Assembly (NCBI RefSeq): GCF_010993745.1
Contig: NZ_WOTN01000001.1
Coordinates: 1,119,235 to 1,183,234 of the forward strand
DNA: 64,000 bases
Direction of reading: 5' to 3'
Source of the DNA: Fodinicola acaciae
GTDB taxonomy: Bacteria; Actinomycetota; Actinomycetes; Mycobacteriales; HKI-0501
Every line of letters begins with the position of its first letter. The stretch's first letter is position 1. The notes under the pieces are model-generated. The model did not search any database. It had not been told where the DNA came from and saw nothing but the letters and a program-made list of their open reading frames with translations. Shown here one piece after another: positions 6,978 through 26,208 of this stretch. The position numbers were made by a program, and so were the translations under genes.

Positions 6978-9611
6978 CTAGCCAGTGGCGACGCGCAGGA
7001 GCGTGCTGCGGTGCCACTCGTCGGCGCCAGCGGCCGCGAAGACCGTCGCCGCGGCGTTGAGGTGGTCCGCGGAGTGCTCCGCGTCGATGTCGGCGAGGGT
7101 CAGCAGCGCACGACCTTCGGCCTTACGCTGGCCGGTCTGTCGCGCCAGCCGGATCGCACTGTCCACAGTGGACCACGCGGCATCCCGGTCGCCGGCCGCC
7201 AGCTGTGCCTCCGCCAGACCGCGTACGGCGCCAGGCTCGGACCGCGGATCGCCGAACGCACGCGCCAGCTCGACGGTCCTGGCGGCCAGGTGGACGGCTT
7301 CGCCGGCGCGTCCTTGGTGCACGTAGAAGGCACGGATCGCGCGTAAGAACATGATGCGCAGCTGCCGTACGTTCGCCGGCACCAGCGCTGCGGCCTCGTC
7401 CAGAAGGTCGATCGCCTCGCCGGCTCGGCTGGCGCGGAGCGCGGCGGTGGCGAGGCGGCCGAGGTCGTACGCCGCCGCGGTGACGTCGTCGGCCTCGGCG
7501 AGCAATGCCTGAGCCTGCCGCAGGTCAGCCGGCCTCGACCAGCCGGGTTGGCCGAGCCGGTGCTCGCGGATCGCCGAGCGGCCGAGCCGCATGACGCGTT
7601 CGCGCGCGTGACCGAGCCGTTCGAACAGCAGCGTGTGCTGCCGGCTGACCGACCCCGGCACGGAGTCGAGCCGCAGGCCGACGCTCACCGGGACCGGTCG
7701 CAGCCGCGTCGTGCCGACCGCGAGCCGCCAGCTCAGCTCGTCCAGGCCTCGGCCGGTCGCGTCGGCCATCGCGGCCGCGACGGTGTGCCGCTCGGACCGC
7801 AGCCAGTCGGCGGGTCCGCTCGACAGGCCGCGGACCAGCCGCTCGTACGCGCGTCGCACCGCAGCGGTGAGCTCGGCCGGCGGTTCCTCGATCTCCGCGC
7901 GTTCGGCCGCGTACAACCGGATGAGGTCGTGAAAGCGATATCGCGGCTGGCCGGCGGCGTCGGTGCCGAGTGGCTGGATGAGCTGCGCGTCGACGAGCCG
8001 TTCGGCCAGCTCTTCGGCGTCATCGGCATCGGTGTCCAGCAACGCGGCGAGCGTCCACGGCGCGACACCGGCCGGCGCGTCCAGCAGGCCGAGCCGGCGA
8101 AACGCGGTGCGCAGCCGCGGCGGCAGGTCGCGATAGGACAGCTCGAAGCTGGCGCGCACGTGCCAGTCGTCGCCGTGCAGCTGGTCGAGCCGGCCGTGTT
8201 CGCCGGTGAGCCGTTCGGCCAGCTCCGCGAGAGTCCAGGCCGGCCTGGTGGCCAGCTTCGCCGCGGCGATCCGTACGGCCAGCGGCAACCGGTCGCAGAG
8301 CCTTGCCAACCGCCGCGCGGCGGCCGGTTCGGCGGCGATGCGGTCCGCGCCGATCACATCGGACAGCAGCGCGATCGTCTCGTCGTCGGTGAGTACGCCG
8401 AGCGGCACGAACCGGAAGCCGTCGGCGACCAGTCCGGCGAGCCGCCGCCGAGCGGTCACCACGACCGCGCATCCTGGACCGGCCGGCACTAGCGGCCGCA
8501 CCTGTTCCGCGGACACCGCGTTGTCCAGCACGATGAGCAGCCGCCGCTCGCGTACGGTGCTGCGGAACAACGCGCAGCGCTCGTCGGTGTCGGCCGGCAC
8601 GCGGCCGGCCGCGACGCCGAGCCGCGGCAGCAGCCGGCCGAGTGCCGCACTTGCCGTCAGCGGCTCGTCGTGACCGCGCAGGTCGACGTAGAGCTGGCCG
8701 TCCGGAAAGCGGTCGGCGACGCGGTGCGACCAGTGCAGCGCGAGCGCGGTCTTGCCGACGCCAGGCACGCCGGTGACCAGCGCGGCCGGCATCGATGCCT
8801 CGAGCGCGGACAGCTCGGCAAGCCGTCCGGTGAAGGTCGCCGGCGCGGCCGGCAGCTCGGCCGGTGTCGGCGGCGGCGATTCTGGCAGGTTGCCGGCGCG
8901 GATCGCCTCGGCCAGCCGGCGCAGCCGTGGTCCTGGCTCCAGGCCGAGGTCGTCGGCCAACGACCGGCACGCGTCTCGATACGTGGCCAGCGCCTCGGCC
9001 GTACGACCCTGCCGGTGCAGCGCGGTCATCAGCTGCGCTCGCAGGTCCTCGCGAGACGGATGCTCACGCACCAGCGACTCCAGCTCACCGACGACCTCGG
9101 CGTGCTGGCCGAGCACCAGACGTGCTTCCACCAGCTCGGTCGCGACCGCCTGTCGCTGCTCGTTGAGCCGCGCGGCTTCCTCGCGTACGAGCGGTGAATC
9201 GCCGAGCGTCGCGTACGCCGGTCCGCGCCACAGCCGCATCGCCTCGTCCAGCAGCGCGGCGCCGGCCTCGACATCGCCGGCGACCACACAGGCTCGGCCG
9301 CGCGTCGCCAGCCGGTTGAACGCCGTGGCGTCCAGCTCCTCCGGCCGTACGCGCAGGCTGAGGCCGGCCGCCTCGCGGCGGATCCGGTGCGCGCCGACGG
9401 CCTGTCGCAGGTGATGGACGTAGATCCGCAGGCTGCCGGCGGCCGACGGTGGCGGGTCGGCACCCCACACGACGTCGATGAGCGTGTCGACCGCGACAGC
9501 GGTGTTCGGCCGGCACAGCAAGGCGGCGAGCAGGGATCGCAGCTTCGGCGACAGCTGGACCGGACCGCCGGATCGGCAGGCCTCGAACGGTCCCAGGACG
9601 TTGAACTGCAC
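6978..9611 (-). CDS. AfsR/SARP-family transcriptional regulator with NB-ARC and TPR-like domains
   Basis: 877 residues from a GTG preceded by a G-rich ribosome-binding site. Residues 1-90 form an OmpR-type winged helix, and about 95-245 the bacterial transcriptional activation domain, together the SARP module that binds 11-bp-spaced direct repeats. A P-loop (GVPGVGKT) at about 280 starts an NB-ARC STAND ATPase, and the C-terminal 300 residues are helical TPR-like. AfsR-type proteins activate secondary-metabolite or antibiotic genes. It is one of two such regulators here. The peptide locus at 21.4-26.2 kb carries SARP-type sites, making this a candidate activator, though 12 kb away. Confidence 0.9.
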   Translation of the reverse strand: MQFNVLGPFEACRSGGPVQLSPKLRSLLAALLCRPNTAVAVDTLIDVVWGADPPPSAAGSLRIYVHHLRQAVGAHRIRREAAGLSLRVRPEELDATAFNRLATRGRACVVAGDVEAGAALLDEAMRLWRGPAYATLGDSPLVREEAARLNEQRQAVATELVEARLVLGQHAEVVGELESLVREHPSREDLRAQLMTALHRQGRTAEALATYRDACRSLADDLGLEPGPRLRRLAEAIRAGNLPESPPPTPAELPAAPATFTGRLAELSALEASMPAALVTGVPGVGKTALALHWSHRVADRFPDGQLYVDLRGHDEPLTASAALGRLLPRLGVAAGRVPADTDERCALFRSTVRERRLLIVLDNAVSAEQVRPLVPAGPGCAVVVTARRRLAGLVADGFRFVPLGVLTDDETIALLSDVIGADRIAAEPAAARRLARLCDRLPLAVRIAAAKLATRPAWTLAELAERLTGEHGRLDQLHGDDWHVRASFELSYRDLPPRLRTAFRRLGLLDAPAGVAPWTLAALLDTDADDAEELAERLVDAQLIQPLGTDAAGQPRYRFHDLIRLYAAERAEIEEPPAELTAAVRRAYERLVRGLSSGPADWLRSERHTVAAAMADATGRGLDELSWRLAVGTTRLRPVPVSVGLRLDSVPGSVSRQHTLLFERLGHARERVMRLGRSAIREHRLGQPGWSRPADLRQAQALLAEADDVTAAAYDLGRLATAALRASRAGEAIDLLDEAAALVPANVRQLRIMFLRAIRAFYVHQGRAGEAVHLAARTVELARAFGDPRSEPGAVRGLAEAQLAAGDRDAAWSTVDSAIRLARQTGQRKAEGRALLTLADIDAEHSADHLNAAATVFAAAGADEWHRSTLLRVATG

Positions 9612-10218: not shown

Positions 10219-10312
10219 GAAGGTGCTTCTCCGTCTTTCGCCGGGGCTGACGTGCGCGAGTGTGGGATGGTGCTGTTGAAGGTTCGTTGTCGTCGGCGTG
10301 AACGGTGGTGGC

Positions 10313-13072
10313 ATGCGGTTCGGCGTGCTCGGTCCGCCGGAGGTGTCGAAGCGGACCGGACCGATACGCCTCACGCCAAAGCTGCGCGCACTGCTGGCGG
10401 CACTGCTGACCAGGCCAAACGCGACGGTGCCGGCAGGCGAGCTGATCGACGCGGTGTGGAGCGGCGCGCCGCCGCCGTCGGCCTCGGACAGCCTGCGCAT
10501 CTACGTCCACCAGCTGCGCCGAGCGCTCGGCGACGCCGACCGGATCGTCCGTACGCCGACCGGCTTTCGCCTGGTCGTAGGCACCGGCGAGCTGGACGCC
10601 GCCGGCTTCGAGGAGCTGGTGGAGGCGGCCAAGGCGAGCGGCGACCTCGCGGACCGCGCGCGGTTGCTCGCCGACGCGCTTCGTGACTGGCGTGGACCGG
10701 CCTTCGCCGGACTGGCGGATCTGCCGGTCGTCCGCGAGGAGGCGGCGCGGCTGGACGACCTGCGCCAGACCGCCGCGGCCGACCGGATCGACGCCGAGCT
10801 GACGCGCGGCCGGCACGCGGCCGTCGTCGCCGAGGTCGCCGGTCTGGTCGAGCAGCATCCGTACGCCGAGCGGCTGCGCGGCCAGCTGATGCTCGCGCTC
10901 TACCGGCTCGGCCGGTCGGCCGAAGCGCTCGAGGTCTTCCGTGCCGACTGGCAGCTGCTGGCCGTCGATCTCGGCCAGCAACCCGGTGCCGCGCTGCGCG
11001 AGTTGGAGCACGCGATCCTGACCAACGATCCGGCGCTGGATCCGGAGCCGGCGCGGACCGTGCCGCGTGAGCTGCCGCCAGACCTCGCCACCTTCACCGG
11101 CCGGGTCGCCGAGTCGCGATGGATCACGCGCGCGCTGGAAAGACATCCAGTGGTGGCGATCTCCGGTCCTGGTGGCGCGGGCAAGTCGACGCTGGCGATC
11201 CACACCGCGCACCAGATCGCCGGCCGGTTTCCGGACGGCCAGCTGTACGTCGACCTGCACGGCTCGACGCCGGACGTACGACCGCTGGAGCCGGCCGAGG
11301 TGCTGGCGCGGTTTCTCCGGTCGCTGGGGCTGCCGGCCGGTTCGGTGCCAGCCGGCGAGGTCGAGGCAGGCGCGCTTTTTCGCAGCCTCACGCACAACCT
11401 GCGGCTGCTGGTCGTGCTGGACAACGCGTATGACACGGCTCAGGTGCGGCCGCTGCTGCCTGGCGGTGCGACCTGCGCGGTCCTCGTGACTGGGCGCCGC
11501 GCGCTGACCTCACTGGACGCGGCGACACACCAGCTCGACGCGCTCGACCACACCGAAGCGGCGGCTTTGCTGAGCCGGATCGCCGGCGCCGGCCGGCTGG
11601 CCGCCGATCCAGCCGCGGCCGACGAGGTCGTACGGCTCTGCGGCCGGCTGCCGCTGGCGATCGGCATCGCCGCCGCGCGGCTGGTGACGCGGCCACGCTG
11701 GACGGTCCGTACGTTGGTGGACCGGCTCGCGGTCGAGGACCGCCGGCTGTCCGAGCTGGCGGCGGACGACCGGAGCGTACGCACCAGCTTCGCGGTCAGC
11801 TACGCCGACCTCGCGACACCGGCGGCCGCGCGGATGTTCCGGCTGCTCGGACTTCTCGACGGCGTGGACGTGTCGGTGCCTGTGGCGGCGGCCATCGCGG
11901 ACGTGCCGGTCGACCGTGCCGAGACGCTGCTGGATGAGCTGGTCGACGTGCAGCTCGCCACCACCTCGCACACCCGTCGTTACCGGCTGCACGACCTGCT
12001 TCGGCTGTTCGCGAGGGAACGCGCGGCGGCCGAGGAATCCGCCCACGAGCGGACCGAGGCACGGCTTCGGGCGATGCACTGCTATGTCGGCTCGGCAACG
12101 TCGGGGTTGCGCACGATCATGCCGGCGTACGAGTGGCGGCTGCGCGTCGCGCCGGTCGACAAACCGCGGCATGCCGGCGTACGGCTGAGCACCGCGGCTG
12201 AGGTGACCGCGTGGTTGGCGGCCGAGCGCGAAAACCTGCTGGTCACCGCCGGTCGGGCGGTGCGCGACGATCCCGAGTTGGTGATGAACCTGGCGGCACC
12301 GCTCAGCCTGCTGCTGGAATATCGCGGCCGGTGGCGCGACCACCTGTCGCTCGCCGAGCTGACCCGGCGTGCCGCCGAGCAGACCGGCGATCCGTTGCAT
12401 GGCGCACTGGCCGGCAACGACCTCGGTTGGTCGCTGATGACACTCGGCCGGATCGAGGAGTCGTTGGGACCGTTGGAAAACGCCGTACGTGCGTGGCGGC
12501 GCGGCGGAAACGGTGACGGCGAGGCACTTTCGTTGCACGGCCTCGGTGCCGCGCACCGGTTGCTCGGCCGGCAGGAGAAGGCGTTGGCCATCCTGCGCGA
12601 AGCCGTCGCGGTCGCGCGGCGATGCGGGAACATCGCTCGCGCCGCGTCCTGCCTGACGACGATCGGCTTGACATACCAGTCGGTCGGTGCGTACGAGCAG
12701 GCGGTGCGCACGCACACCGAAGCCGTTGCGCTGTCCGGCAAATGTGGCATCTGGATCAACGAGGTGATGACCCTCGGCGGCCTCGCCGAGGTGCGCCGGC
12801 TGACCGGCGATCCGGCGCGCGCCGCCGAGATTTTCCAGCAGGCACTGGAAACCGGCCGCGCCAGCGGTTATCGCGGCACCTACTGGGAAGCCGAGCATCT
12901 GTGGGGACTCGGCCGCGCTCGGCACGACCAGGGCCTGGACGGCGCCGAATGCTGGCGCGCCGCCGCGCGTATCCTGTGCGATCTCGGCCTGATCCAGGCG
13001 TCCGAGCGCGCGGCGATCGACCGCGGCGACCATCCCGACACGCCGATGGTGATCGCCGAACGACTGGCCTGA
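10313..13072 (+). CDS. AfsR/SARP-family transcriptional regulator with NB-ARC and TPR domains
   Basis: 919 residues. The ATG gives MRFGVLGPPEV, aligning with MQFNVLGPFEA of the first AfsR-like protein. A GTG five codons upstream is an alternative. Order: winged helix (1-90), BTAD (95-245), P-loop SGPGGAGKST at about 283 opening an NB-ARC ATPase, then a TPR array (residues 600-900) containing G-x(2)-L-G-W and G-x(3)-A-L type helices. It is a member of the SARP group that controls specialised metabolism. The two copies are clearly homologous but divergent, so not a recent duplication. Either could bind the TTAGCG direct repeats at 21389 and 26190. Confidence 0.9.
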   Translation: MRFGVLGPPEVSKRTGPIRLTPKLRALLAALLTRPNATVPAGELIDAVWSGAPPPSASDSLRIYVHQLRRALGDADRIVRTPTGFRLVVGTGELDAAGFEELVEAAKASGDLADRARLLADALRDWRGPAFAGLADLPVVREEAARLDDLRQTAAADRIDAELTRGRHAAVVAEVAGLVEQHPYAERLRGQLMLALYRLGRSAEALEVFRADWQLLAVDLGQQPGAALRELEHAILTNDPALDPEPARTVPRELPPDLATFTGRVAESRWITRALERHPVVAISGPGGAGKSTLAIHTAHQIAGRFPDGQLYVDLHGSTPDVRPLEPAEVLARFLRSLGLPAGSVPAGEVEAGALFRSLTHNLRLLVVLDNAYDTAQVRPLLPGGATCAVLVTGRRALTSLDAATHQLDALDHTEAAALLSRIAGAGRLAADPAAADEVVRLCGRLPLAIGIAAARLVTRPRWTVRTLVDRLAVEDRRLSELAADDRSVRTSFAVSYADLATPAAARMFRLLGLLDGVDVSVPVAAAIADVPVDRAETLLDELVDVQLATTSHTRRYRLHDLLRLFARERAAAEESAHERTEARLRAMHCYVGSATSGLRTIMPAYEWRLRVAPVDKPRHAGVRLSTAAEVTAWLAAERENLLVTAGRAVRDDPELVMNLAAPLSLLLEYRGRWRDHLSLAELTRRAAEQTGDPLHGALAGNDLGWSLMTLGRIEESLGPLENAVRAWRRGGNGDGEALSLHGLGAAHRLLGRQEKALAILREAVAVARRCGNIARAASCLTTIGLTYQSVGAYEQAVRTHTEAVALSGKCGIWINEVMTLGGLAEVRRLTGDPARAAEIFQQALETGRASGYRGTYWEAEHLWGLGRARHDQGLDGAECWRAAARILCDLGLIQASERAAIDRGDHPDTPMVIAERLA

Positions 13073-17560: not shown

Positions 17561-18694
17561 TCAGAGGTCGCCGAGCGCGGTCACCGGGTTTTCCAGGCAG
17601 TCAGCCACAAACCGCAGAAAGCCGCCGGCCGTGCCGCCATCGCAGACCCGGTGGTCGAAGGCCAGCGTCAGCTCGCACACCTTGCGTACGGCCAAAACTG
17701 CCTCCACGGCCCATGGCCGGTCGATGATCCGGCCGATGCCGAGGATCGCGGCTTCCGGATGGTTGATGATGGCGGCCGAGCCGTCGACGCCGAACAGGCC
17801 GTAATTGTTCACCGTGAACGTGCCACCGGTCAGGTCCGGCGGCGCCAGCGTGCCGTCGCGAGCCGCCGACGTACGCGCGGCGATCGCGGCCGACAGTTCG
17901 CGCGTCGACAGCGTGGCCGCGTCGCGTACGACCGGCACGACCAGACCGCGGTCGGTCTGCGCGGCGAAACCGAGGTGGATCCGTTTCAGGCGTACGATCT
18001 CGTCGCCGTCGACCCGGGAGTTGAGCTCGGGAAACCGCTGCAGACCGGCGACGGTGAACCGCGCGACCAGGCCGAGCAAACTCACCGGACGGTCCGGCCG
18101 CGCCGCGTTCAACGCGGCACGAGCCGCCACCAGCTCGGTCGCGTCCACGTCGACCCAGACGGTCGCCTCGGGGATGTCGCGGCGAGACCTGGTGAGCTTG
18201 TCGGCGACGGCTTTTCGCAGCGGCACTCTGATGTCGTCGGAGGTGCCGAGTGCGCTTTCCACGTCGGCGCGCCGGATGATTCCGCCGGGTCCGGTGCCCG
18301 CGACGCTCGCCAGGTCGACACCGTTGTCAGCGGCCATTTTCCGGACCAGCGGCGAGATGACAGGTGGCACTGACTGTCGAAGCCGCCGCCGGCGCGTGGT
18401 CGTGCTGGTGCCATATCCGACGAGTACGTTGCCGCTGGTTTCGACTCCGGGCTCGTCGAAACCGCCGCCGATGCCGAGCAACGCGGCGCCAACCTGCAGC
18501 GTCTGTCCCTCCTCGGCATGCAACGCGGTGACCACGCCGGCGTACGGGCTCGGCACCTCGACCACGGCTTTTGCCGTCTCCACCTCGACAACCGGCTGGT
18601 CGACGGTGACGACGTCGCCTTCCTTGACGAGCCAGCCGACGATCGCCGCCTCGGTCAGGCCTTCGCCGAGATCCGGCAGCAGGAAGTCAGGCAC
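17561..18694 (-). CDS. bkdC: Dihydrolipoamide acyltransferase (E2) of a branched-chain 2-oxoacid dehydrogenase
   Basis: 377 residues, GTG start overlapping the E1beta gene by 8 bases. Residues 1-80 are a single lipoyl domain with the lipoylated Lys in ETAKAVVEV. A peripheral-subunit-binding domain (VRKMAADNGVDLASVAGTGPGG) lies around 115-150, and the catalytic CAT domain ends with the HxxxD motif FDHRVCDGG near residue 345. The enzyme transfers the acyl group from lipoate to CoA, cytoplasmic complex. With E1alpha and E1beta alongside and an Lrp regulator divergent, a branched-chain complex supplying branched fatty-acid or polyketide starters is favoured over pyruvate dehydrogenase. E3 is not encoded here. 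Confidence 0.88.
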   Translation of the reverse strand: MPDFLLPDLGEGLTEAAIVGWLVKEGDVVTVDQPVVEVETAKAVVEVPSPYAGVVTALHAEEGQTLQVGAALLGIGGGFDEPGVETSGNVLVGYGTSTTTRRRRLRQSVPPVISPLVRKMAADNGVDLASVAGTGPGGIIRRADVESALGTSDDIRVPLRKAVADKLTRSRRDIPEATVWVDVDATELVAARAALNAARPDRPVSLLGLVARFTVAGLQRFPELNSRVDGDEIVRLKRIHLGFAAQTDRGLVVPVVRDAATLSTRELSAAIAARTSAARDGTLAPPDLTGGTFTVNNYGLFGVDGSAAIINHPEAAILGIGRIIDRPWAVEAVLAVRKVCELTLAFDHRVCDGGTAGGFLRFVADCLENPVTALGDL

Positions 18695-19685
18695 TGGCCA
18701 CCACCGGCTGGTCCTGCCACTGCAACCGCGCGATCGTGTCCAGGATGCGGTCCACGTGCGGCAGTTGGTGGCGCTCGAGTTTCGGTGGAGGATAAGGGAT
18801 GTCGAGACCGGTCACCCGCAACACCGGCGCATGCAGATAATGGAAACACTGCTCGGTGACGCGCGCGACGATTTCCGCGCCATAACCGCCAAAGCCCGCG
18901 GCCTCGTGCACGACCACGGCACGGCCGGTGCGCCGCACCGACGCACTCACGGTCACGTCGTCGAAGGGGGAGAGCGAGCGCAGATCCACGACCTCCACGT
19001 CCCAGCCTTCGGCCGTCGCGGCCTCCGCCGTCTCCAAGGCGGTCGCGACCATCGGTCCGTACGCGATCAGCGTCACGTCACGTCCGGGGCGGCGTACGAC
19101 CGCCTGGTCCATTGGCGCCGAATCGCGGCTGAACGACACGGATTCCTTTGTCCAGTAACGGTTCTTCGGTTCCATGAAGACGACCGGATCGGCCGAGTCG
19201 ATCGCATCGCGCAGCAGGTCGTATGCGTCCTGCGCGGATCCCGGGGTGACGACCCGCAAGCCTGGCGTGTGGGTGTAAAACGCCTCGCTGGAGTCGCAAT
19301 GGTGTTCCACGCCACCGATGCCGCCCGCGTACGGGATGCGGATGACCATCGGCAGTGCGACCGCACCGCGCGTACGGTTGCGCATTTTCGCCACGTGCGA
19401 GGTGATCTGCTCGAAAGCCGGATAGGCGAAGGCGTCGAACTGCAATTCCACGACCGGCCGGAAACCACCCATCGCCATGCCGACCGCGAAACCGACGATC
19501 CCGGACTCGGCCAGTGGCGTGTCGAAGCAGCGGTCGTCGCCAAAGTCCGCGGCGATGCCATCAGTGATACGGAAAACGCCGCCGAGCGCACCGACATCCT
19601 CGCCGAGGATGACGACGCGGTCGTCGTCCTTCACAGCGTCCCGGAGAGCCGCGTTGAGCGCCTGAGCCATGCTGAGCTGAGTCAT
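18687..19685 (-). CDS. bkdB: 2-oxoacid dehydrogenase E1 component, beta subunit
   Basis: 332 residues, a typical length for the TPP-dependent E1 beta chain. Recognisable stretches are LGEDVGALGGVFRIT, the cofactor-contacting DTPLAESGIVGFAVGMA, and PYAGGIGGVEHH followed by the potassium/phosphorylation-loop region. It pairs with E1alpha to decarboxylate branched-chain 2-oxoacids and reductively acylate the E2 lipoyl arm. The ATG overlaps the E1alpha stop by 4 bases (ATGA), and the 3' end overlaps E2 by 8 bases, so the three genes are translationally coupled. Confidence 0.92.
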   Translation of the reverse strand: MTQLSMAQALNAALRDAVKDDDRVVILGEDVGALGGVFRITDGIAADFGDDRCFDTPLAESGIVGFAVGMAMGGFRPVVELQFDAFAYPAFEQITSHVAKMRNRTRGAVALPMVIRIPYAGGIGGVEHHCDSSEAFYTHTPGLRVVTPGSAQDAYDLLRDAIDSADPVVFMEPKNRYWTKESVSFSRDSAPMDQAVVRRPGRDVTLIAYGPMVATALETAEAATAEGWDVEVVDLRSLSPFDDVTVSASVRRTGRAVVVHEAAGFGGYGAEIVARVTEQCFHYLHAPVLRVTGLDIPYPPPKLERHQLPHVDRILDTIARLQWQDQPVVASA

Positions 19686-20773
19686 GACTCCTCCTTGAGT
19701 TCAGCGGCGACCTGGGCGCGCTGCGCGGTCAGCAACCGCGTCGGCCGCGCATAAACGTTGTCAAACAACGAAAGCGGATCGAGCGACGGCTCGGTGTTGA
19801 GCGCAGCGCGTACGTCCGCCGCGTATTGCTCGGCGTCAGCCCGAAACCGCTCGACCTCCTCGGCGGACAGCAGCTCACGCTCGAGGAGGTGCTTTTCCAG
19901 CCGTCGCACCGGATCGGCGGCGCGCCACCGCTGCACCTCGGCCGGATCACGATAACGGCTCGCGTCGTCCGCGTTGGTGTGCGCATCGATCCGATACGTG
20001 TGCGCCTCGACCAGCACCGGTCCATGACCGGCACGCGCGTACGCGACGGCCGCGTCGAGCACGGACAGCACCGCCACCGCGTCGTTTCCGTCCACCTGCT
20101 CGGATCGCACGCCATAGCCGATGCCTTTGTACGCCAGCGCCGGCGCCGCGGTCTGCTTCTCCAACGGCACCGAGATCGCATAACCGTTGTTCTGGACGAA
20201 GAACACGACCGGAGCGTCGCACACCGCGGCGAAGTTGAGCGCCTCGTGGAAATCGCCCTCGCTGGTGGCGCCGTCGCCGGCCAGAGCCATCACCACGGCG
20301 TCCTCGCCACGGCGTCGCAGCGCGTACGCGAGACCAGTCGCATGCAGCGTTTGCGTCGCCAGCGGGGTACATTGCGGCGCGACGCGTACGGCCGCCGGGT
20401 CATAGCCGCAATGCGCGTCGCCACGCAGCAGCGTCAGCACCTCCGGGGCAGCGACGCCGCGTGCCACCAGCGCGACCGAGTCGCGATAGGTCGGAAACAG
20501 CCAGTCCGCCGGACCCAGTGCCATTGCACAGCCGATCTGGCAGGCCTCCTGGCCGCTGCTGGACGGATAGACGGCGAGCCGGCCCTGCTTGGTCAGCGCG
20601 GTCGCCTGCGTGTCGAAGCGGCGGCCGATCACCATCAGGCGATACGCCTTGCGGAGCCGGTCGCCCGGCGGCTCGGCGTAGCCGTCGTGCTCGTCGACCG
20701 CCGACGCGTCCTCGGCGACGAACCGGACCGGCGTCGCCGACGGCAGCAGCTCGGCCGGATTCTTACGCGGCAT
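19682..20773 (-). CDS. bkdA: 2-oxoacid dehydrogenase E1 component, alpha subunit
   Basis: 363 residues from the ATG at 20773, preceded by GAGAGGTGG. A TTG seven codons upstream is an alternative. The thiamine diphosphate motif GDGATSEGDFHEALNF followed by VQNNGYAIS is intact, and YPSSSGQEACQIG and FPTYRDS match branched-chain E1alpha proteins. It performs the TPP-dependent decarboxylation step with E1beta. First gene of the operon. The 77 bases to the divergent Lrp/AsnC gene must hold both promoters and the operator. Confidence 0.92.
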   Translation of the reverse strand: MPRKNPAELLPSATPVRFVAEDASAVDEHDGYAEPPGDRLRKAYRLMVIGRRFDTQATALTKQGRLAVYPSSSGQEACQIGCAMALGPADWLFPTYRDSVALVARGVAAPEVLTLLRGDAHCGYDPAAVRVAPQCTPLATQTLHATGLAYALRRRGEDAVVMALAGDGATSEGDFHEALNFAAVCDAPVVFFVQNNGYAISVPLEKQTAAPALAYKGIGYGVRSEQVDGNDAVAVLSVLDAAVAYARAGHGPVLVEAHTYRIDAHTNADDASRYRDPAEVQRWRAADPVRRLEKHLLERELLSAEEVERFRADAEQYAADVRAALNTEPSLDPLSLFDNVYARPTRLLTAQRAQVAAELKEES

Positions 20774-20850
20774 GGCGACCACCACCTCTCGCAACCATAT
20801 GATGCTGAGATCGTGCGTCCGCGCGTCCGAGTGTTCAAGGTGGCCAGGAA

Positions 20851-21388: not shown

Positions 21389-21407
21389 CTTAGCGAAATG
21401 TTAGCGG
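21389..21407 (+). promoter_or_regulatory. SARP-type direct-repeat activator site, + operon of the peptide locus
   Basis: CTTAGCG (21389-21395) and GTTAGCG (21400-21406) are separated by 4 bases, an 11-bp period equal to one helical turn. This is the heptamer geometry of SARP activator sites, which lie about 8 bases upstream of a -10. Here AAAACT follows at 21415-21420 after exactly 8 bases, and the peptide ATG is at 21452. An almost identical element (17 of 19 bases) lies in opposite orientation at 26190-26208. Confidence 0.7.
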
Positions 21408-21451
21408 CTTCCAGAAAACTCGACCCTCGTCCTACGACGAGGGGAGACCTC

Positions 21452-21646
21452 ATGACCGCAACCCTGGGCCGGATGACCGACCGGCTGCTGGGCCTGTTCG
21501 TGCCGGCGACCACCGCCGGTGCCTGCGCCTGTGGCGACTTCTACTGCTCGACATCGGGTTGTCGAGCCGGTTACCGGCGCGACTGTACGGCCAGCTGCGA
21601 CTGCAGCCGGGTCACCTGCGGCACCTGCTATCGGGGTAGTTGCTAG
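21452..21646 (+). CDS. Cysteine-rich secreted peptide precursor A (10 Cys)
   Basis: 64 residues. The ATG follows GGGGAG. A longer in-frame start has no ribosome-binding site and would overlap the activator site. The leader, residues 1-24, ends FVPATTAGA. The remaining 40 residues contain ten Cys, nearly all small or polar residues between them, beginning CAC-x4-C-x4-C. That opening resembles the CxC...C...C start of the fulvocin C-related tail at 41.2 kb. The leader shares its VPxTTAxA-C end with peptides B and C. First gene of the + operon with a thioredoxin-like protein and S26 peptidase. I infer a disulfide-stabilised, probably antimicrobial or signalling peptide, and no known family name is certain. 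Confidence 0.8.
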   Translation: MTATLGRMTDRLLGLFVPATTAGACACGDFYCSTSGCRAGYRRDCTASCDCSRVTCGTCYRGSC

Positions 21647-21661
21647 CACTTTCCGATCCGT

Positions 21662-21688
21662 CCCCGGTGGCCGGATCGGCCACCGGGG
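21662..21688 (+). terminator. Strong hairpin between peptide A and the thioredoxin-like gene
   Basis: CCCCGGTGGCC, loop GGATC, GGCCACCGGGG: an 11-bp perfect GC-rich stem with no U-tract. Best read as a partial terminator or mRNA stabiliser that lets peptide A transcript exceed the downstream enzyme genes. Confidence 0.6.
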
Positions 21689-21707
21689 TGCCCACCCTGG
21701 AGCACAC

Positions 21708-22235
21708 ATGACCGCATTTGTCGCCGTCGTCGGCGCGCTCAGCCTCGTCAACCTCCTGCTCTGCATCGGCATCGTCCGCCGCCTTCGCGAACACACCGAC
21801 ATCCTCAACACGAAGCTCGGTGACAACGGCCCCGCGCCGATGTACGCGGCGGGTCAGCGGATCGGCGACTTCCAGGCGACGACCGTCGACGGCGCGGCCG
21901 TCAGCCGTGACGCGCTGACCGGCACGACGCTGCTCGGCGCCTTCACCCCTGGATGCACGCCGTGCAAGGAACGGCTGCCGCTGTTCATCGAGCAGGCCGC
22001 GCAGCGCGACCGCGACCAGGTCCTCGCGATCGTCTCCGGCACGGTCGACGACGCGGCCGACTACGTCGCGCGCCTGAGCGCGGTCGCTCGTGTCGTCCGT
22101 GAGGAGGACGGCGGTCCGGTCACCACGGCCTTCGGCGTGGAGGGTTTCCCGGCTTTCGCACTGATCGACACCGACGGGGTCGTACTCGCCAGCGGCACCA
22201 AGCTCGGTGCGTTGGCGATGCCAGTCCCGGCATGA
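21708..22235 (+). CDS. Membrane-anchored thioredoxin-like protein (TlpA/MauD type), copy 1
   Basis: 175 residues. A single N-terminal transmembrane helix (residues 3-22) is followed by a basic VRRLRE stop-transfer stretch, orienting the rest outside the membrane. The thioredoxin fold begins near 50 and has the redox motif CTPC at 83-86. The cis-Pro region is GVEGFPAFALID. Copy 2 at 25079 has its CxxC at exactly the same residues and the same LNLL...VRRLR anchor, so the two are paralogues. Role: thiol-disulfide exchange during folding of the Cys-rich peptides. Whether it oxidises or isomerises is not decidable. The stop overlaps the signal peptidase ATG (ATGA). Confidence 0.85.
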   Translation: MTAFVAVVGALSLVNLLLCIGIVRRLREHTDILNTKLGDNGPAPMYAAGQRIGDFQATTVDGAAVSRDALTGTTLLGAFTPGCTPCKERLPLFIEQAAQRDRDQVLAIVSGTVDDAADYVARLSAVARVVREEDGGPVTTAFGVEGFPAFALIDTDGVVLASGTKLGALAMPVPA

Positions 22236-22651
22236 TCAGGACCGCGCTGGTCCTGCTCGGCATGCTCGGCGTGGCGGTGGGCTTGGCGCGTACGCGGCTG
22301 GTCGCGGTCACGGTCGAGGGGGACAGCATGATCCCGACCTTGCGCGCGGGCGACCGCGTACTCGTCGTCAAGCTGCCGCTGCGCTGGGTCCGCCGTCGCC
22401 AGCTCGTCGTTTTCGCGCCGCCAAAGGGGTTGCTGCCCGAGAGCGAGCCACCGTGGCTGATCAAACGCGCGGTCGCGTTGCCCGGCGACGTTGTGCCGGC
22501 GGAGGTGCCGAATCTCGCCGGCACGCGCGTGCCGGCCGATCGTTTCGTCGTGCTCGGCGACAACTCGGCGCGCAGCTTCGACTCGCGGCGGGCCGGTTAT
22601 CTCGCCGCCGACACCCTGCTCGGCGTCGTCGTACGCCGGCTGAGCGCCTAG
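22232..22651 (+). CDS. S26-family (type I) signal peptidase dedicated to the peptide locus
   Basis: 139 residues, shorter than housekeeping LepB. One N-terminal transmembrane helix, then the catalytic Ser in GDSMIPTL (S32) and the general-base Lys in LIKRAVALPGD (K78). The box E motif LGDNSARSFDSR is near 109-119. All S26A catalytic elements are present. Type I peptidases cut after AxA, and each of the three peptide precursors ends its leader A-[AG]-A immediately before the first Cys, so this enzyme is the likely leader peptidase. Coupled to the thioredoxin-like gene by a 4-base overlap and followed 44 bases later by peptide B. Confidence 0.9.
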   Translation: MIRTALVLLGMLGVAVGLARTRLVAVTVEGDSMIPTLRAGDRVLVVKLPLRWVRRRQLVVFAPPKGLLPESEPPWLIKRAVALPGDVVPAEVPNLAGTRVPADRFVVLGDNSARSFDSRRAGYLAADTLLGVVVRRLSA

Positions 22652-22695
22652 CGGCGCCGCGGATTTGTCCTGTTACTCCAACAGAAGGAGGACAC

Positions 22696-22929
22696 GTGTC
22701 CATCGCAAAACTGTCCGACGCCGTGGTCAGGTGGCTGGTGCCACAGACCACCGCGGCCGCGTGCATCGCACCTGAGCCGTGCGACGCCTGTGCGAATCCG
22801 ACGATGGCCTGTCTCAACGGCTATTACACACCGGTCAAGTACACGCTCAAGGTCAACAACTGCAACGGCCAGTGCACGATCTACAAAAAGCAGATCTGCT
22901 GGCGTGGCGACTGGGCCGGCGTCTGTTGA
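22696..22929 (+). CDS. Cysteine-rich secreted peptide precursor B (8 Cys)
   Basis: 77 residues, GTG start with AGGAGG five bases upstream. A small CTGTT/AACAG hairpin (22670-22684) precedes the ribosome-binding site. The leader of 22 residues ends LVPQTTAAA. The predicted mature part is 55 residues with eight Cys: C-x5-C-x2-C-x6-C in the N-terminal half, then an aromatic/basic middle (YTLKVNNCNGQCTIYKKQ) and two last Cys. Trp occurs twice near the C-terminus. Tandem with peptide C, identical over the central 18 residues. No lanthipeptide, radical-SAM or YcaO enzyme is nearby, so disulfides are the only modification supported. Confidence 0.82.
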   Translation: MSIAKLSDAVVRWLVPQTTAAACIAPEPCDACANPTMACLNGYYTPVKYTLKVNNCNGQCTIYKKQICWRGDWAGVC

Positions 22930-22964
22930 CAGTCGGTATTTCTCAACGAAAAAGGAGGATTGAC

Positions 22965-23195
22965 ATGTCCATCGTGAAAATGGCCGACACGGTCGTCGGG
23001 TGGCTGGTGCCACGGACGACCGCCGCGGCCTGCCTCGCACCTGAGCCGTGCGACGCCTGCGCCAACGCCGTCAGGCGCTGTGAGGCCGGTGCGTTGATCG
23101 AATACCGTTACACGCTCAAGGTCAACAACTGCAACGGCCAATGTACGATTTACAAGAAGCAGGTGTGCTCCGAGCGTTATCTCGGCGGCTGCTAG
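22965..23195 (+). CDS. Cysteine-rich secreted peptide precursor C (8 Cys)
   Basis: 76 residues, ATG with AAAGGAGG upstream. Paralogue of peptide B: leader MSIVKMADTVVGWLVPRTTA and all eight Cys in register, identical core YTLKVNNCNGQCTIYKKQ. Differences concentrate in the segment after Cys4 and in the C-terminal loop, where both Trp of B are replaced. A pair of similar but non-identical peptides could act together as a two-peptide bacteriocin, or be diversified toxins. Last gene of the + operon, 11 bases before a strong bidirectional hairpin terminator. Confidence 0.82.
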   Translation: MSIVKMADTVVGWLVPRTTAAACLAPEPCDACANAVRRCEAGALIEYRYTLKVNNCNGQCTIYKKQVCSERYLGGC

Positions 23196-23206
23196 GAAAA
23201 CCCAAG

Positions 23207-23239
23207 GCGAGCGCGTCGGACCCGGACGCGCTCGCTTTT
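23207..23239. terminator. Bidirectional intrinsic terminator between the convergent operons
   Basis: GCGAGCGCGTC and GACGCGCTCGC form a perfect 11-bp stem around a 7-base loop, followed by TTTT on the + side and, read on the - strand, followed by CTTGGGTTTT. It sits exactly between peptide C and the exporter stop codon. Confidence 0.88.
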
Positions 23240-23240
23240 G

Positions 23241-25082
23241 CTATGCCAGTGTCGCCGGCTGATATCCCTGTCCCTGCAAGGTGAACAGCCGCGCGTACAC
23301 ACCGGCCTTCGCCATCAGCTCGTCGTGATCGCCTCGTTCGGTGATCAGTCCGCCGTCGAGCACGACGATCTGGTCGGCATAGCGCAAGGTGCCGAGGCGG
23401 TGGGAAATAAGCAGGGATGTGCGACCGGTGCGGAATTCGGTGAGGGTCTGGTGAATACGGTGTTCCGCTTCGGCGTCCAGGCCGGAGCTCGGCTCGTCCA
23501 GAATCAGCAGGCTCGCGCGGTCACGCATCAGCGACCGCGCGAGCGCCAGCCGCTGCCATTGGCCGCCGGAGAAGCTGACGCCGGGCTCCTGGGTGTCTTC
23601 GTCGTCGTCCGCGAAGAAAATCCGGCTCAACATGGTGTCGTATCCGCGCGGCAAAACCGAGATCGCGTCGTCGATGCCGGCACGTGCCGCGGCCGTACGG
23701 ATCGCGGTCAGATCGTCGCGGCGCGACAGGTCACCGAGACCGATGTTGTCGCGCGCCGGCAGGTCGTATGACATGAAATCCTGGAAAGTCGCGGCCAAAC
23801 GCAGCCGCAGCGACTCCGGTGAGATCTGCCGCAGGTCGACGCCGTCCCACCGGATCCGGCCGCGTTCGGGCTCGTAGAAGCGGCACAGCAGCTTGATGAG
23901 CGTACTCTTGCCAGCGCCGTTGACGCCGACGATCGCGACCGAGCTGCCGGCGGCGATCTCGAAGCTCACGCCGCGCAGGACCCACGGGCCGTCCGGCTGA
24001 TAGCGAAACCAGACGTCCTCGAACCGTACGGAGTGGCTCAGGTCCGGCGCGACCAGCTCACCGCTGGCCGAGTCGGCCGGCAGGGCCATCACCTCCAGAT
24101 ATCGCTGGAAGGTCTTGACCGCCTCGACCACGGCGCCGATCCGCGCCACCAGGTCGGACAGCGAGCCTTGTACGGCCGCGACCGCGGACATGAAAAGCAG
24201 CACGTCGCCCGGCGTCAGCTCGCCGCGTACGACCCGCAGCGCGACGATCGCCACGGCCACACCGGAGATCGCCGCGCCGAGCAGGCTCAAGCCGGCCTGC
24301 ACGATGGCCGTGCGGCTGGCCAGCGCGAGCTGTACGTCCTGGGAGCGCCGGAGCGCGTCCAGTTGGAGGCCGCGGAAATGCCGGCCGATGCCGAACAGTC
24401 GCACCTCCTTCGCGGCCTGCTCGCTGACCAGCAGCATCCGATAGAACATCCGCCGCCGTTGCAGCGGTGAGATCGCCAGCGTGGCCACGACCTGGCGGTT
24501 GGCCAGCATGATCTCGGCGGCCAGGCCGGGGATCGCGGCCACCAGCAGCACCACCGCGAGCGCGGGCCACACCAGCGCCACCATGCCGAGGAAGCTGAGG
24601 ATCGAGATGACCGCGCGCGTACTGCCTTCGGCGAAGTCGGTGATGCTGTTGGGGCCGTGCGAGGCCGCGCTCTCGGCGACCATCAGCCGGTCCTGGAAGG
24701 TCGGATCCTCGATGTAGCGCAGGCCGACGAAGCCGCAGACCTTCTCGAACAGGTCGCTCTCGGTGCGCAGGGTGATCGCCGAGTTGTGCCTGGCCACGAG
24801 GTAGATCGTCAGCTGCTGGCCGAGCAGCCCGACCGCCGCCGCGACGGCTGCCGCGACGGCGTAGAACACCACATGAGCGACATTTCCGGAGCGTCCGAGC
24901 GCCAGCTCGTCGACCAGCAGCTTGCCGTACCAGGCGGCGACCGGTGCGCTGGCCGCGCCGACCAGCGTCAGGCCGAGCCGGCCGGCGGAGCAGAGTGCCG
25001 AGGCTCGCCACCCCAGGACGACAGCGGACCAGCCGGCCGCCAACATCGCGACCGGGCTGGTCCGGATGGCCGTACGCGTCAC
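23241..25082 (-). CDS. ABC exporter (fused permease-ATPase) of the peptide locus
   Basis: 613 residues from a GTG that overlaps the thioredoxin-like stop (GTGA). Residues 1-320 carry six transmembrane helices of an ABC type-I exporter. The ATPase has Walker A GVNGAGKST (about 385), the C-signature FSGGQWQRLALARS, and Walker B LLILDEPSSGLD. There is no N-terminal C39 protease domain, consistent with leader removal by the separate S26 enzyme. It would act as a homodimer, exporting peptide or lipid-linked substrate. The position in one operon with MauE and a thioredoxin-like protein resembles CydDC-type thiol export too, so transport of a thiol redox compound is an alternative. Confidence 0.9.
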   Translation of the reverse strand: MTRTAIRTSPVAMLAAGWSAVVLGWRASALCSAGRLGLTLVGAASAPVAAWYGKLLVDELALGRSGNVAHVVFYAVAAAVAAAVGLLGQQLTIYLVARHNSAITLRTESDLFEKVCGFVGLRYIEDPTFQDRLMVAESAASHGPNSITDFAEGSTRAVISILSFLGMVALVWPALAVVLLVAAIPGLAAEIMLANRQVVATLAISPLQRRRMFYRMLLVSEQAAKEVRLFGIGRHFRGLQLDALRRSQDVQLALASRTAIVQAGLSLLGAAISGVAVAIVALRVVRGELTPGDVLLFMSAVAAVQGSLSDLVARIGAVVEAVKTFQRYLEVMALPADSASGELVAPDLSHSVRFEDVWFRYQPDGPWVLRGVSFEIAAGSSVAIVGVNGAGKSTLIKLLCRFYEPERGRIRWDGVDLRQISPESLRLRLAATFQDFMSYDLPARDNIGLGDLSRRDDLTAIRTAAARAGIDDAISVLPRGYDTMLSRIFFADDDEDTQEPGVSFSGGQWQRLALARSLMRDRASLLILDEPSSGLDAEAEHRIHQTLTEFRTGRTSLLISHRLGTLRYADQIVVLDGGLITERGDHDELMAKAGVYARLFTLQGQGYQPATLA

Positions 25083-25609
25083 GCGGGTACGCGGTCGGGC
25101 AGCACGTCGGCGTACTTCACCGCCGCCTCGACGATGACTCCGTCCTTGACCCACGCCGCGGTCGGATAGCTGCGGCTGCCGAGCGCGGTCTCGACCCCGG
25201 CCGTGCCGTCGAAGGCGGCGATCGTACCGATGCCGGCGAGCGCGCTCAGCATCGGCCGCAGCTCCGGCTCGTCCGGCTCGCCGCGCAGCAGGATGAACGT
25301 ACGCTCCGGCAGGGCGCCGCGGTCCTTTTGCAGGCTGGCGGCGGTTTCCTTGCACGGCTGGCAGGTGGGCGACAGCATCAACACCAATGCCTCGCCGCTG
25401 CTGAGGTCGGCCTCGGTGATCGCCGTACCATCCGCCGCCGTGACCGCGAACGCGCCGACGGTCGCGCCGGCCACGGGAAGGTCGGCCTGCGACTCCTTCT
25501 CCTTCTCGGCCGCCATCGTACGGAGGCGCCGTACGACGCCCAGCAGGATGAGAAGGTTGAGCAGGGTCAGCACGGTGAGCAGACCCACCGCGACAGCCAG
25601 AGCGGCCAT
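25079..25609 (-). CDS. Membrane-anchored thioredoxin-like protein (TlpA/MauD type), copy 2
   Basis: 176 residues. N-terminal transmembrane helix (2-24) ending VRRLRT, a charged linker, then a thioredoxin fold with CQPC at 83-86, the same coordinates as in copy 1 on the other operon. MauD proteins act after MauE to form disulfides in secreted Cys-rich proteins such as methylamine dehydrogenase light chain. Here the clients are presumably peptides A-C. The ATG lies 12 bases inside the end region of mauE. Much longer upstream in-frame starts overlap MauE and are not used. Confidence 0.85.
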   Translation of the reverse strand: MAALAVAVGLLTVLTLLNLLILLGVVRRLRTMAAEKEKESQADLPVAGATVGAFAVTAADGTAITEADLSSGEALVLMLSPTCQPCKETAASLQKDRGALPERTFILLRGEPDEPELRPMLSALAGIGTIAAFDGTAGVETALGSRSYPTAAWVKDGVIVEAAVKYADVLPDRVPA

Positions 25610-25620
25610 GAGCAGTCCAA

Positions 25621-26142
25621 TCAGCGAGGCGAGAGCAGGAACGCGAAGTCGTCCAGCCGGGTGATGACGACCGCGAGGAAGGCGCCGGCACCGATCGTGA
25701 CGGCGGTCGTCACGACATCGTGGGGGAGTCGCGGCCCGACCGCGACCGCGACCAGTGCGCAGAGCAGCAGGAACGCGTTGCGTACCACGTGGATCGGCGC
25801 GATCGTCGCACTCGACGCACCGAAGCACGCGCAGGTGACCTTCAGCCGGCGCCGCAGAATCATCACGACGCCGGCGGTGAGGACGGCGAACAAGGCGGTC
25901 GCCAGCCCGGCGCCGGCGACCGCAGTCCAGGGGAGCAGCAACAACACCGCCGACGCCGCCTCACCGCCGACCAGCAAGCCGCCGACCAGACCGGCGCGCC
26001 GATCGATGCCAAGCTGCCTGAGCATGTCGTTCAGGCCGCGGCGTCCGCCGGTCGTCAGCTTGCTCACCGAGCTCCAGCTGAGGACGACGGCCAGCATGAC
26101 CCGCACGGTCAGAGCGACAATCGCCATCAGGGCCGCGCTCAA
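25621..26142 (-). CDS. MauE/DoxX-like redox membrane protein
   Basis: 173 residues. A TTG start is chosen because GGAGGA lies 6 bases before it; the first ATG, five codons later, is 21 bases away. Four transmembrane helices are evident. C104-A-C106-FG after a basic loop is the CxC(F)G redox motif typical of MauE-family proteins, thought to pass electrons across the membrane to MauD-like thioredoxins. It is first in the - operon (mauE - thioredoxin - exporter). Upstream is the SARP-type repeat, with CATACT as -10. The longer open frame upstream runs through this promoter and is rejected. Confidence 0.87.
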   Translation of the reverse strand: MSAALMAIVALTVRVMLAVVLSWSSVSKLTTGGRRGLNDMLRQLGIDRRAGLVGGLLVGGEAASAVLLLLPWTAVAGAGLATALFAVLTAGVVMILRRRLKVTCACFGASSATIAPIHVVRNAFLLLCALVAVAVGPRLPHDVVTTAVTIGAGAFLAVVITRLDDFAFLLSPR

Positions 26143-26189
26143 GATCTGTCCTCCACTCTCTCGGGGCCGGGCAGCAGTATGCGCAGGTG

Positions 26190-26208
26190 CCGCTAACTTT
26201 TCGCTAAC
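26190..26208 (-). promoter_or_regulatory. SARP-type direct-repeat activator site, - operon of the peptide locus
   Basis: Read on the - strand: GTTAGCG AAAA GTTAGCG G, two exact heptamers with 4-base spacing and 11-bp period. Nine bases downstream is CATACT, a good -10, and the TTG start of mauE follows after a leader of about 35 bases. It matches the element at 21389-21407 in 17 of 19 positions, so both operons should be switched on by one activator. Confidence 0.75.

Follow-up and report, generated by a model that had tools for sequence, protein, structure and literature searches.

A locus of Fodinicola acaciae predicted to make secreted disulfide-rich peptides, and its relatives among actinomycetes

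Gene content of the locus

The window analysed here is a stretch of 64,000 nucleotides from the 8.86-Mb genome of Fodinicola acaciae (4 contigs), and at positions 21389–26208 it carries a locus of two convergent operons whose content points to secreted, disulfide-rich peptides. An initial annotation had described the locus as a system for such peptides, and the parts that it listed, with the two operons and the three Cys-rich precursors of 10, 8 and 8 Cys, are all present in the sequence. The relatives found by the searches described below are actinomycetes.

The plus-strand operon has the order repeat, P1, TrxA, S26, P2, P3. The repeat (21390–21407), recognised in the sequence and by a pattern search of the genome, is a SARP-like direct repeat of two heptamers 11 bp apart. 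P1 (21452–21646) is a Cys-rich precursor of 64 residues with 10 Cys and a predicted cut after AGA at residue 24. TrxA (21708–22235) is a TlpA/MauD-like oxidoreductase with an N-terminal hydrophobic stretch and a CTPC motif; it matches the Pfam Redoxin and AhpC-TSA families (PF08534, PF00578), and its NCBIfam matches to MauD and ResA are weak. The next gene (22232–22651) encodes a short S26 signal-peptidase-like protease with the conserved Ser and Lys, above cut-off for PF10502 and TIGR02227. P2 (22696–22929, GTG start) and its paralogue P3 (22965–23195) are precursors of 77 and 76 residues, each with 8 Cys.

The minus-strand operon has the order repeat (26190–26207), MauE, TrxB, ABC. The MauE-like membrane protein (25621–26142) starts with TTG, with an ATG at 26127, carries a CxCFG motif and matches PF07291 with an E value of 6e-19. 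TrxB (25079–25609) is a second TlpA-like protein with a CQPC motif, placed by the family alignment and below cut-off for PF00578. The ABC exporter (23241–25082; PF00005, PF00664) has 613 residues and lacks a C39 peptidase domain.

As the initial annotation stated, the two operons share one terminator. It is a palindromic stem of 11 pairs, 9 of them G-C, at 23207–23235, and on the plus strand four T come after it. The terminator scan, which found 4 terminator-like sites against 2.0 in shuffled sequences, reports this stem for the minus strand only.

No LanB, LanC, LanM, radical-SAM or YcaO enzyme was found among the eight window genes in NCBIfam and Pfam scans, in agreement with the initial annotation. 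Lanthipeptides, sactipeptides and azole-type ribosomally synthesised and post-translationally modified peptides (RiPPs) were considered and rejected, since no matching enzyme is among these genes and none recurs among the relatives, which share five large gene clusters only. The locus had also been called self-contained. This holds for redox, cleavage, export and precursor genes, which are all present; it does not hold for regulation and self-protection, as there is no SARP gene within 21389–26208 and no recognised immunity gene in the locus.

Precursors and their same-genus copies

The three precursors are of two kinds, P1 being one and P2 with P3 (68% identity) the other. None of them has an NCBIfam or Pfam match above chance; across the family, 13 precursors were scanned against Pfam without a match, and none of 10 scanned against NCBIfam rises above chance level. 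Both kinds recur in a same-genus genome, G001 (74% complete). Its contig C25 carries an orthologous locus, L025, with P1, TrxA, S26, two P2/P3-like precursors, ABC, TrxB and MauE, in which the arrangement is kept and the neighbouring genes differ.

Between P1 and its homologue (L025, 5273–5464) replacement changes are rarer than silent ones, the proportions of changed replacement sites (pN) and silent sites (pS) being 0.233 and 0.490. P2 and P3 differ to a similar degree, with a pN of 0.242 and a pS of 0.464. In all three comparisons of the P2/P3 type the leader is less changed than the core; in P1 the two have changed about equally (pN 0.22 and 0.24). By these comparisons P1–P3 are real genes, and the small open reading frames (ORFs) are conserved among relatives, the leaders to a greater degree than the cores. 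The search of viral contigs for P3 gave 18 pattern matches with no relative among them. Among solved structures, P3 has one chance match (E 0.73) and P1 has no match.

Relatives in other actinomycetes

A precursor profile search of 394 genomes, in which at most 14 candidates were scored per genome and relatives could be missed, was superseded by searches with the S26 and TlpA proteins. The S26 alignment was searched against 394 genomes of the class with at most nine candidates scored per genome, so that the counts are lower bounds: at least 56 places in at least 27 genomes reach 82 bits or more, and the next stands at 71 bits. After removal of three that were already known (the window, L028 and L029), and with two places sharing one locus, 52 loci remain; one of them (L138 in G053, 82 bits, on a 4-kb contig) is possibly an ordinary signal peptidase. 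Outside the class, the S26 search of the whole phylum (396 genomes) found only 5 genomes, at 77–82 bits, near the level of ordinary signal peptidases. Scanning genome contigs with the TlpA alignment turned up 119 relatives, and the best 80 of these were taken. These are from Streptomyces, Nonomuraea, Microtetraspora, Micromonospora, Catellatospora, Actinoplanes, Kribbella, Amycolatopsis, Lentzea, Pseudonocardia, Salinispora and others. At least two loci were found by both surveys: L110 is the same as L174, and L100 the same as L191 (same precursors).

Precursors were called as ORFs with a model leader and at least 4 Cys. The leader model was built from 19 leaders and then extended to 88 by adding calls from the first loci and from those found by S26; P1, itself in the training set, scores 45 bits. 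The 80 TlpA-found loci show a precursor in 71, the family S26 in 75 and MauE in 63, with all three in 54. On the reversed DNA of the same loci the threshold is passed in 1/80, and in 0/80 at 8 bits and above. In the loci found by S26, which had contributed to the training of the model, an automatic precursor is present in 45/52. Control loci around ordinary signal peptidase I have none (0/6); the six were hand-picked from the same S26 list, and one of them, L143, spans only 5.6 kb. By eye, a precursor was also seen in four of the nine uncalled TlpA loci (L147, L161, L168, L177) and in five of six uncalled S26 loci (L091, L104, L121, L126, L132). Homologous loci thus hold Cys-rich ORFs, and with the conservation of the small ORFs the initial annotation comes through both of its checks by sequence.

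The precursors lie close to the other genes. The median distance to the nearest TlpA, S26 or MauE frame is 16.5 bp, and 136/158 are within 300 bp, these distances being somewhat short as they were taken to stop-to-stop frames. When 2088 genes of 60 residues or more, predicted by a simple gene caller that undercounts, were clustered from 147 regions (140 family loci, 6 controls and the window), five large clusters emerged: ABC in 132 regions, a cluster that also includes unrelated ABC ATPases, MauE in 93, TlpA in 81, S26 in 79 and SARP in 72. The next cluster reaches 10. No recurrent immunity gene or modifying enzyme was seen among genes of this size in the 147 regions, and immunity genes of fewer than 60 residues would be missed.

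The ABC protein has at least 5000 matches among plasmid records, and three of them were inspected, Streptomyces clavuligerus pF1D18A (L079) and two Embleya megaplasmids. The row on pF1D18A consists of two small hypothetical proteins, MauE, a hypothetical TlpA-like protein, ABC and S26. The small proteins of pF1D18A, which are the precursors and are annotated as hypothetical, and those of Embleya have a similar leader and differing Cys-rich cores. In all three (L077 and L078 in Embleya, L079 in S. clavuligerus) the cassette sits on a linear megaplasmid, which suggests that it may move between strains. The stretches examined around the two Embleya loci show no MauE match. No match to the S. clavuligerus S26 was found among phage proteins.

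Four further loci are present in the F. acaciae genome (G000): L028 (C1, 2.79 Mb), L029 (C2, 1.16 Mb), L102 (C2, 1.02 Mb) and L113 (C1, 2.56 Mb). Among these four, only L029 has MauE, TlpA, ABC and S26 together. Each of the S26 places of the genome, at least five in number, has a precursor of its own, which would allow the strain about eight different peptides.

Leaders, cores and cysteine counts

Leaders were anchored at the predicted cut in 158 of 159 precursors. A leader pattern DRLL...VPxxxAxA is conserved, and the cores, mostly 30–50 residues long, are hypervariable. Random pairs share a mean identity of 0.376 in leaders, 0.234 in cores and 0.160 in cores without Cys. Asp is found at −15 in 112 of the 158 leaders and Arg at −14 in 100; these columns are independent of the cut rule, but both residues occur in the leaders used to train the leader model. 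Position −7 is Pro in 124, position −3 is Ala in 133 and Val in 18, and position −1 is Ala in all; because the cut rule accepts only Ala at −1 and only A, V, S or G at −3, and gives preference to a Pro, Ala or Lys slightly upstream, these columns are wholly or partly built in. The leaders of P1–P3 and their relatives end in AxA and show no GG. A separate observation concerns L169 of Rhizohabitans arisaemae, where seven precursors are called from position 5718 on, at least four of them on one strand; their leaders are similar and their cores differ.

AxA sites together with an S26 protease are usual among Sec substrates. In ordinary Sec secretion the leader would act as a weak signal peptide and be removed by the S26 protease of the locus, and the ABC protein might export something else, such as a thiol in the manner of CydDC; CydC and CydD are among the many generic exporter models that the window ABC matches in NCBIfam. 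Against this, only 1/159 leaders has a 15-mer above 1.6 on the Kyte–Doolittle scale, no long hydrophobic core was found in the others, and the middle of the leader carries the Asp and Arg described above. Also against it, in 119/140 loci the S26 gene has an ABC gene of more than 450 residues no more than 3.5 kb away. We consider this explanation unlikely.

P1–P3 each have a Cys directly after the AxA motif, recalling a lipobox, and the products could be imagined as lipidated or cell-wall anchored structural proteins rather than free peptides. The predicted core starts with Cys in only 20/158, and the lipoprotein reading was rejected on this count. Anchored proteins are a very remote prospect also because the even Cys numbers leave none spare for lipid.

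The Cys parity was taken from whole-precursor counts. The total is 4 in 5 precursors, 6 in 74, 7 in 3, 8 in 60, 10 in 16 and 12 in 1, and is thus even in 156/159. Other ORFs of the same loci with at least 4 Cys have an even number in 940/1431. After clustering at 70% identity, 108/111 clusters are even (P 1.8e-16 against the even rate of the other ORFs). The odd count in L135 comes from an extra Cys in the leader.

Cleavage, export and redox proteins

In the family alignment of S26 the residues S32 and K78 are invariant. As text patterns among the relatives, SM.P is found in 126/127 and the Lys motif in 124/127. The pattern C.C[FLW]G occurs in all 108 relatives with a MauE match, and the TlpA proteins have CxxC in 122/129. 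In two loci a second TlpA-like protein without CxxC (L125, 10228–10809; L128, 5553–6116) stands beside one that keeps it; such proteins are possibly chaperones rather than redox enzymes.

No C39 peptidase was found in eight ABC proteins scanned, the window ABC and seven relatives, which fits a separate S26 protease. Class II double-glycine bacteriocins are exported, guided by the leader, through C39 ABC transporters of the peptidase-containing type (PCAT), and disulfides are their main modification. The present locus differs from them in that it has no GG site and no C39 domain, and has instead a separate S26 protease and an AxA site.

TlpA-like proteins are often reductants, not oxidants, and this counts against oxidative folding. 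It would suit another explanation, that the products are secreted copper- or zinc-binding peptides, metallophores or metal sinks, whose Cys are kept reduced by MauE and TlpA, as in copper RiPPs assisted by HvfX/DoxX. The window MauE resembles DoxX-like proteins (DoxX E 0.18), and the MauE of S. clavuligerus weakly matches the model for HvfX copper-RiPP maturation (E 0.016, far below cut-off). Metal sites need no even number of Cys, yet nearly every precursor has one. Moreover, no sixth family of at least 60 residues occurs in more than 10 of the 147 regions, so a metal transporter is not a fixed part, single copper genes not having been searched for. Metal binding is therefore regarded as quite improbable.

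The repeat and its link to SARP regulators

The repeat TTAGCGAAAWGTTAGCGG precedes P1 (21390–21407) and, on the minus strand, MauE (26207–26190). The same activator repeat had been claimed at both operons; the two copies differ in one base, and the repeat is SARP-like with an 11-bp spacing. In the whole F. acaciae genome the pattern TTAGCNNNNNGTTAGCG occurs twice, both times at this locus. In G001 it occurs four times, each time at a locus with precursors of this family (two at the orthologous locus, one each on C13 and C107). Read backwards as a control, it is absent from both genomes.

Sites for SARP activators are heptamer repeats spaced by 11 bp and lie 8 bp before a −10 hexamer. Eight bp after the present repeat stands CATACT before MauE, a good −10-like match, and AAACTC before P1, a weaker one. 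Perfect 7-mers at a spacing of 11 were found upstream of 23/154 precursors, while every other spacing from 8 to 23 gave 1–12; some of the 23 upstream regions are mutually related, and two lie inside S26 coding sequence. The repeat looks like a SARP site on this evidence.

SARP genes are near 72/140 relatives, in stretches mostly of 8 kb on each side, and near none of the six controls or the window locus. The F. acaciae genome gives 44 matches to the SARP of L026, about 0.08 per 16 kb, and with this density as background 72/140 is far above it. The family is thus similar to SARP-regulated antibiotic clusters in its spaced repeats before a −10-like hexamer and in its frequent SARP neighbour, and it differs from them in that the window locus has no SARP gene inside.

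In L026 (G001, C13) the box lies between two divergent genes, one for a P2/P3-like precursor and the other for a large regulator of the SARP type (PF03704, BTAD). A similar pair is found in L027 (G001, C107), near a contig end, where the precursor and SARP matches are broken by frame changes or stops. A 17-residue S26 match lies beside the precursor in each; in L026 this remnant is perhaps the trace of a lost cassette. Both loci have the look of collapsed cassette copies.

The window itself has two large divergent SARP/AfsR-like regulators of 877 and 924 residues (6978–9611, minus strand; 10298–13072, plus strand), about 8 kb from the locus. No TTAGC box lies near their genes, but they could still activate this locus.

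Proposed pathway and its standing

Together these features allow a pathway to be proposed. A SARP-type activator would bind the 11-bp repeats and turn on both operons. P1–P3 would be made as soluble precursors with leaders of 22–24 residues. The dedicated ABC exporter, having no protease domain of its own, would recognise the leader and pass the peptide out, and the membrane-anchored S26 protease would cut after AxA on the outer face, as the motif and the conserved Ser and Lys suggest. MauE and the TlpA-like proteins would then set the disulfides, four or five per core, or correct them; their families, the CxC and CxxC motifs and the even Cys counts point to this role. The mature peptides would most likely act on competitors or other recognition targets, which is the least certain step.

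Sequence comparison establishes the fixed kit, the conserved leader, the AxA site, the even Cys and the SARP-like box. That the locus makes secreted ribosomal disulfide-knotted peptides by this scheme appears highly probable to us, and disulfides are probably their only modification. The disulfide-only system named in the initial annotation is thus supported by comparison and found to be wider than supposed. The loci likely represent a separate class of ribosomal peptides in the Actinomycetes, in which a fixed kit (DR...VPxxxAxA leader, protease-less exporter, S26, MauE with TlpA, SARP) accepts varied Cys-rich cores and adds disulfides only.

Several results weigh against this scheme, in addition to the reducing habit of TlpA-like proteins and the built-in leader columns. 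No precursor was seen by eye in L152, L195, L214, L215, L220 and L131, out of 132 loci with L138 not inspected. MauE was not found in the stretch around 17/80 TlpA loci, and within the F. acaciae genome L102 and L113 have no MauE match and L028 has no ABC match in 13 kb. Two precursors of L029 (5377–5547 and 5590–5763) have 7 Cys in the core, the only odd cores; a free thiol or a dimer is possible there. In the orthologous L025, frame changes interrupt the genes for ABC, S26 and the first TlpA, through decay or assembly error. The structure model of P3, made together with P2 and P1, is poor, with a mean predicted local distance difference test (pLDDT) score of 52.

The same machinery might also make peptides that serve the producer, in signalling, development, spore or surface, rather than in antagonism. 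No immunity-like gene recurs among the neighbours of at least 60 residues, smaller ones being beyond this survey, and several loci are present per genome (at least five S26 places in this strain and at least six in G167), as a role in the producer would allow. The hypervariability of the cores, with a non-Cys identity of 0.16 against 0.38 in leaders, and the SARP control fit antagonism or secondary metabolism better. A role in the producer is accordingly possible but somewhat doubtful. Antagonism is what the variable cores and SARP control suggest, and the absence of a recurrent immunity gene counsels caution.

Comparison with known systems

The MauD and MauE of methylamine dehydrogenase offer an analogy, in which a MauE-like membrane protein and a MauD/TlpA-like thioredoxin would stand side by side and serve a Cys-rich exported client. 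The difference is that the clients here would be small precursors, and that mau genes beyond the MauE- and MauD-like proteins are not in the locus. The methylamine dehydrogenase family PF02975 has no match in the F. acaciae genome, and likewise none in any of 14 control genomes.

Among the papers listed in searches of the open-access literature, only the decRiPPter study was found to join MauE with peptide clusters (PMC7794033), the match in PMC13192320 being to an author named Maue; a later description may exist. As given in its main text, that study lists three unnamed Streptomyces candidate RiPP families with mauE, one of them also with mauD, whose precursors have at least 8 Cys and which are untested (PMC7794033). 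That study retained only families accompanied by a regulator, a peptidase and a transporter, and the role of MauE and MauD in disulfide formation is called speculative so far (PMC7794033). The present locus is similar in having a PF07291 MauE beside precursors of 10, 8 and 8 Cys, no mau pathway in the locus and a presumed precursor-modifying role (PMC7794033). Unlike here, that main text has no mention of S26, signal peptidase, SARP or thioredoxin (PMC7794033), and its three families belong to one genus, whereas the kit described here spans many actinomycete genera. Compared by main-text description, these loci and the decRiPPter mauE families are likely the same. The initial annotation knew of no named system of this content; no name was indeed found in the open-access literature, but the mauE/mauD candidates had already been listed by decRiPPter (PMC7794033).

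The TMcin bacteriocins also have their own disulfide oxidoreductase, leader protease and ABC exporter, and the account of them reports that a dedicated oxidoreductase can be needed for the proper disulfide, and the disulfide for activity (PMC13252029). In contrast to the present locus, they are described there with one disulfide, a transmembrane precursor, the S2P-type protease TmcP and the DsbA-like TmcD, with no MauE in the text (PMC13252029).

If the proposed pathway is true, these loci make up an unnamed source of disulfide-knotted peptides in about two dozen actinomycete genera and a natural peptide family that is large and hardly studied, for which the leader motif and the gene kit provide a simple rule of finding. 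The kit would then be a natural display and folding system for knotted mini-proteins and could serve for making folded knottin-like peptides in Streptomyces, and the MauE/MauD pair would gain a tractable small client.

Neighbouring genes

An anti-phage defence role was considered and rejected, with no PADLOC family matched by seven locus proteins (the ABC protein left out). An AsnC-type regulator (PF01037; 20851–21381) lies beside the locus, and a tRNA-Leu lies downstream. The regulator was rejected as a part of the system, as its best same-genus match (53% identity over 80 residues) is on contig C20 and the orthologous locus is on C25. Upstream, at 17561–20794 on the minus strand, are genes that we take to encode 2-oxoacid dehydrogenase E2, E1 beta and E1 alpha. 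These dehydrogenase-like genes and the AsnC-type regulator appear to be ordinary metabolism at the border of the locus.

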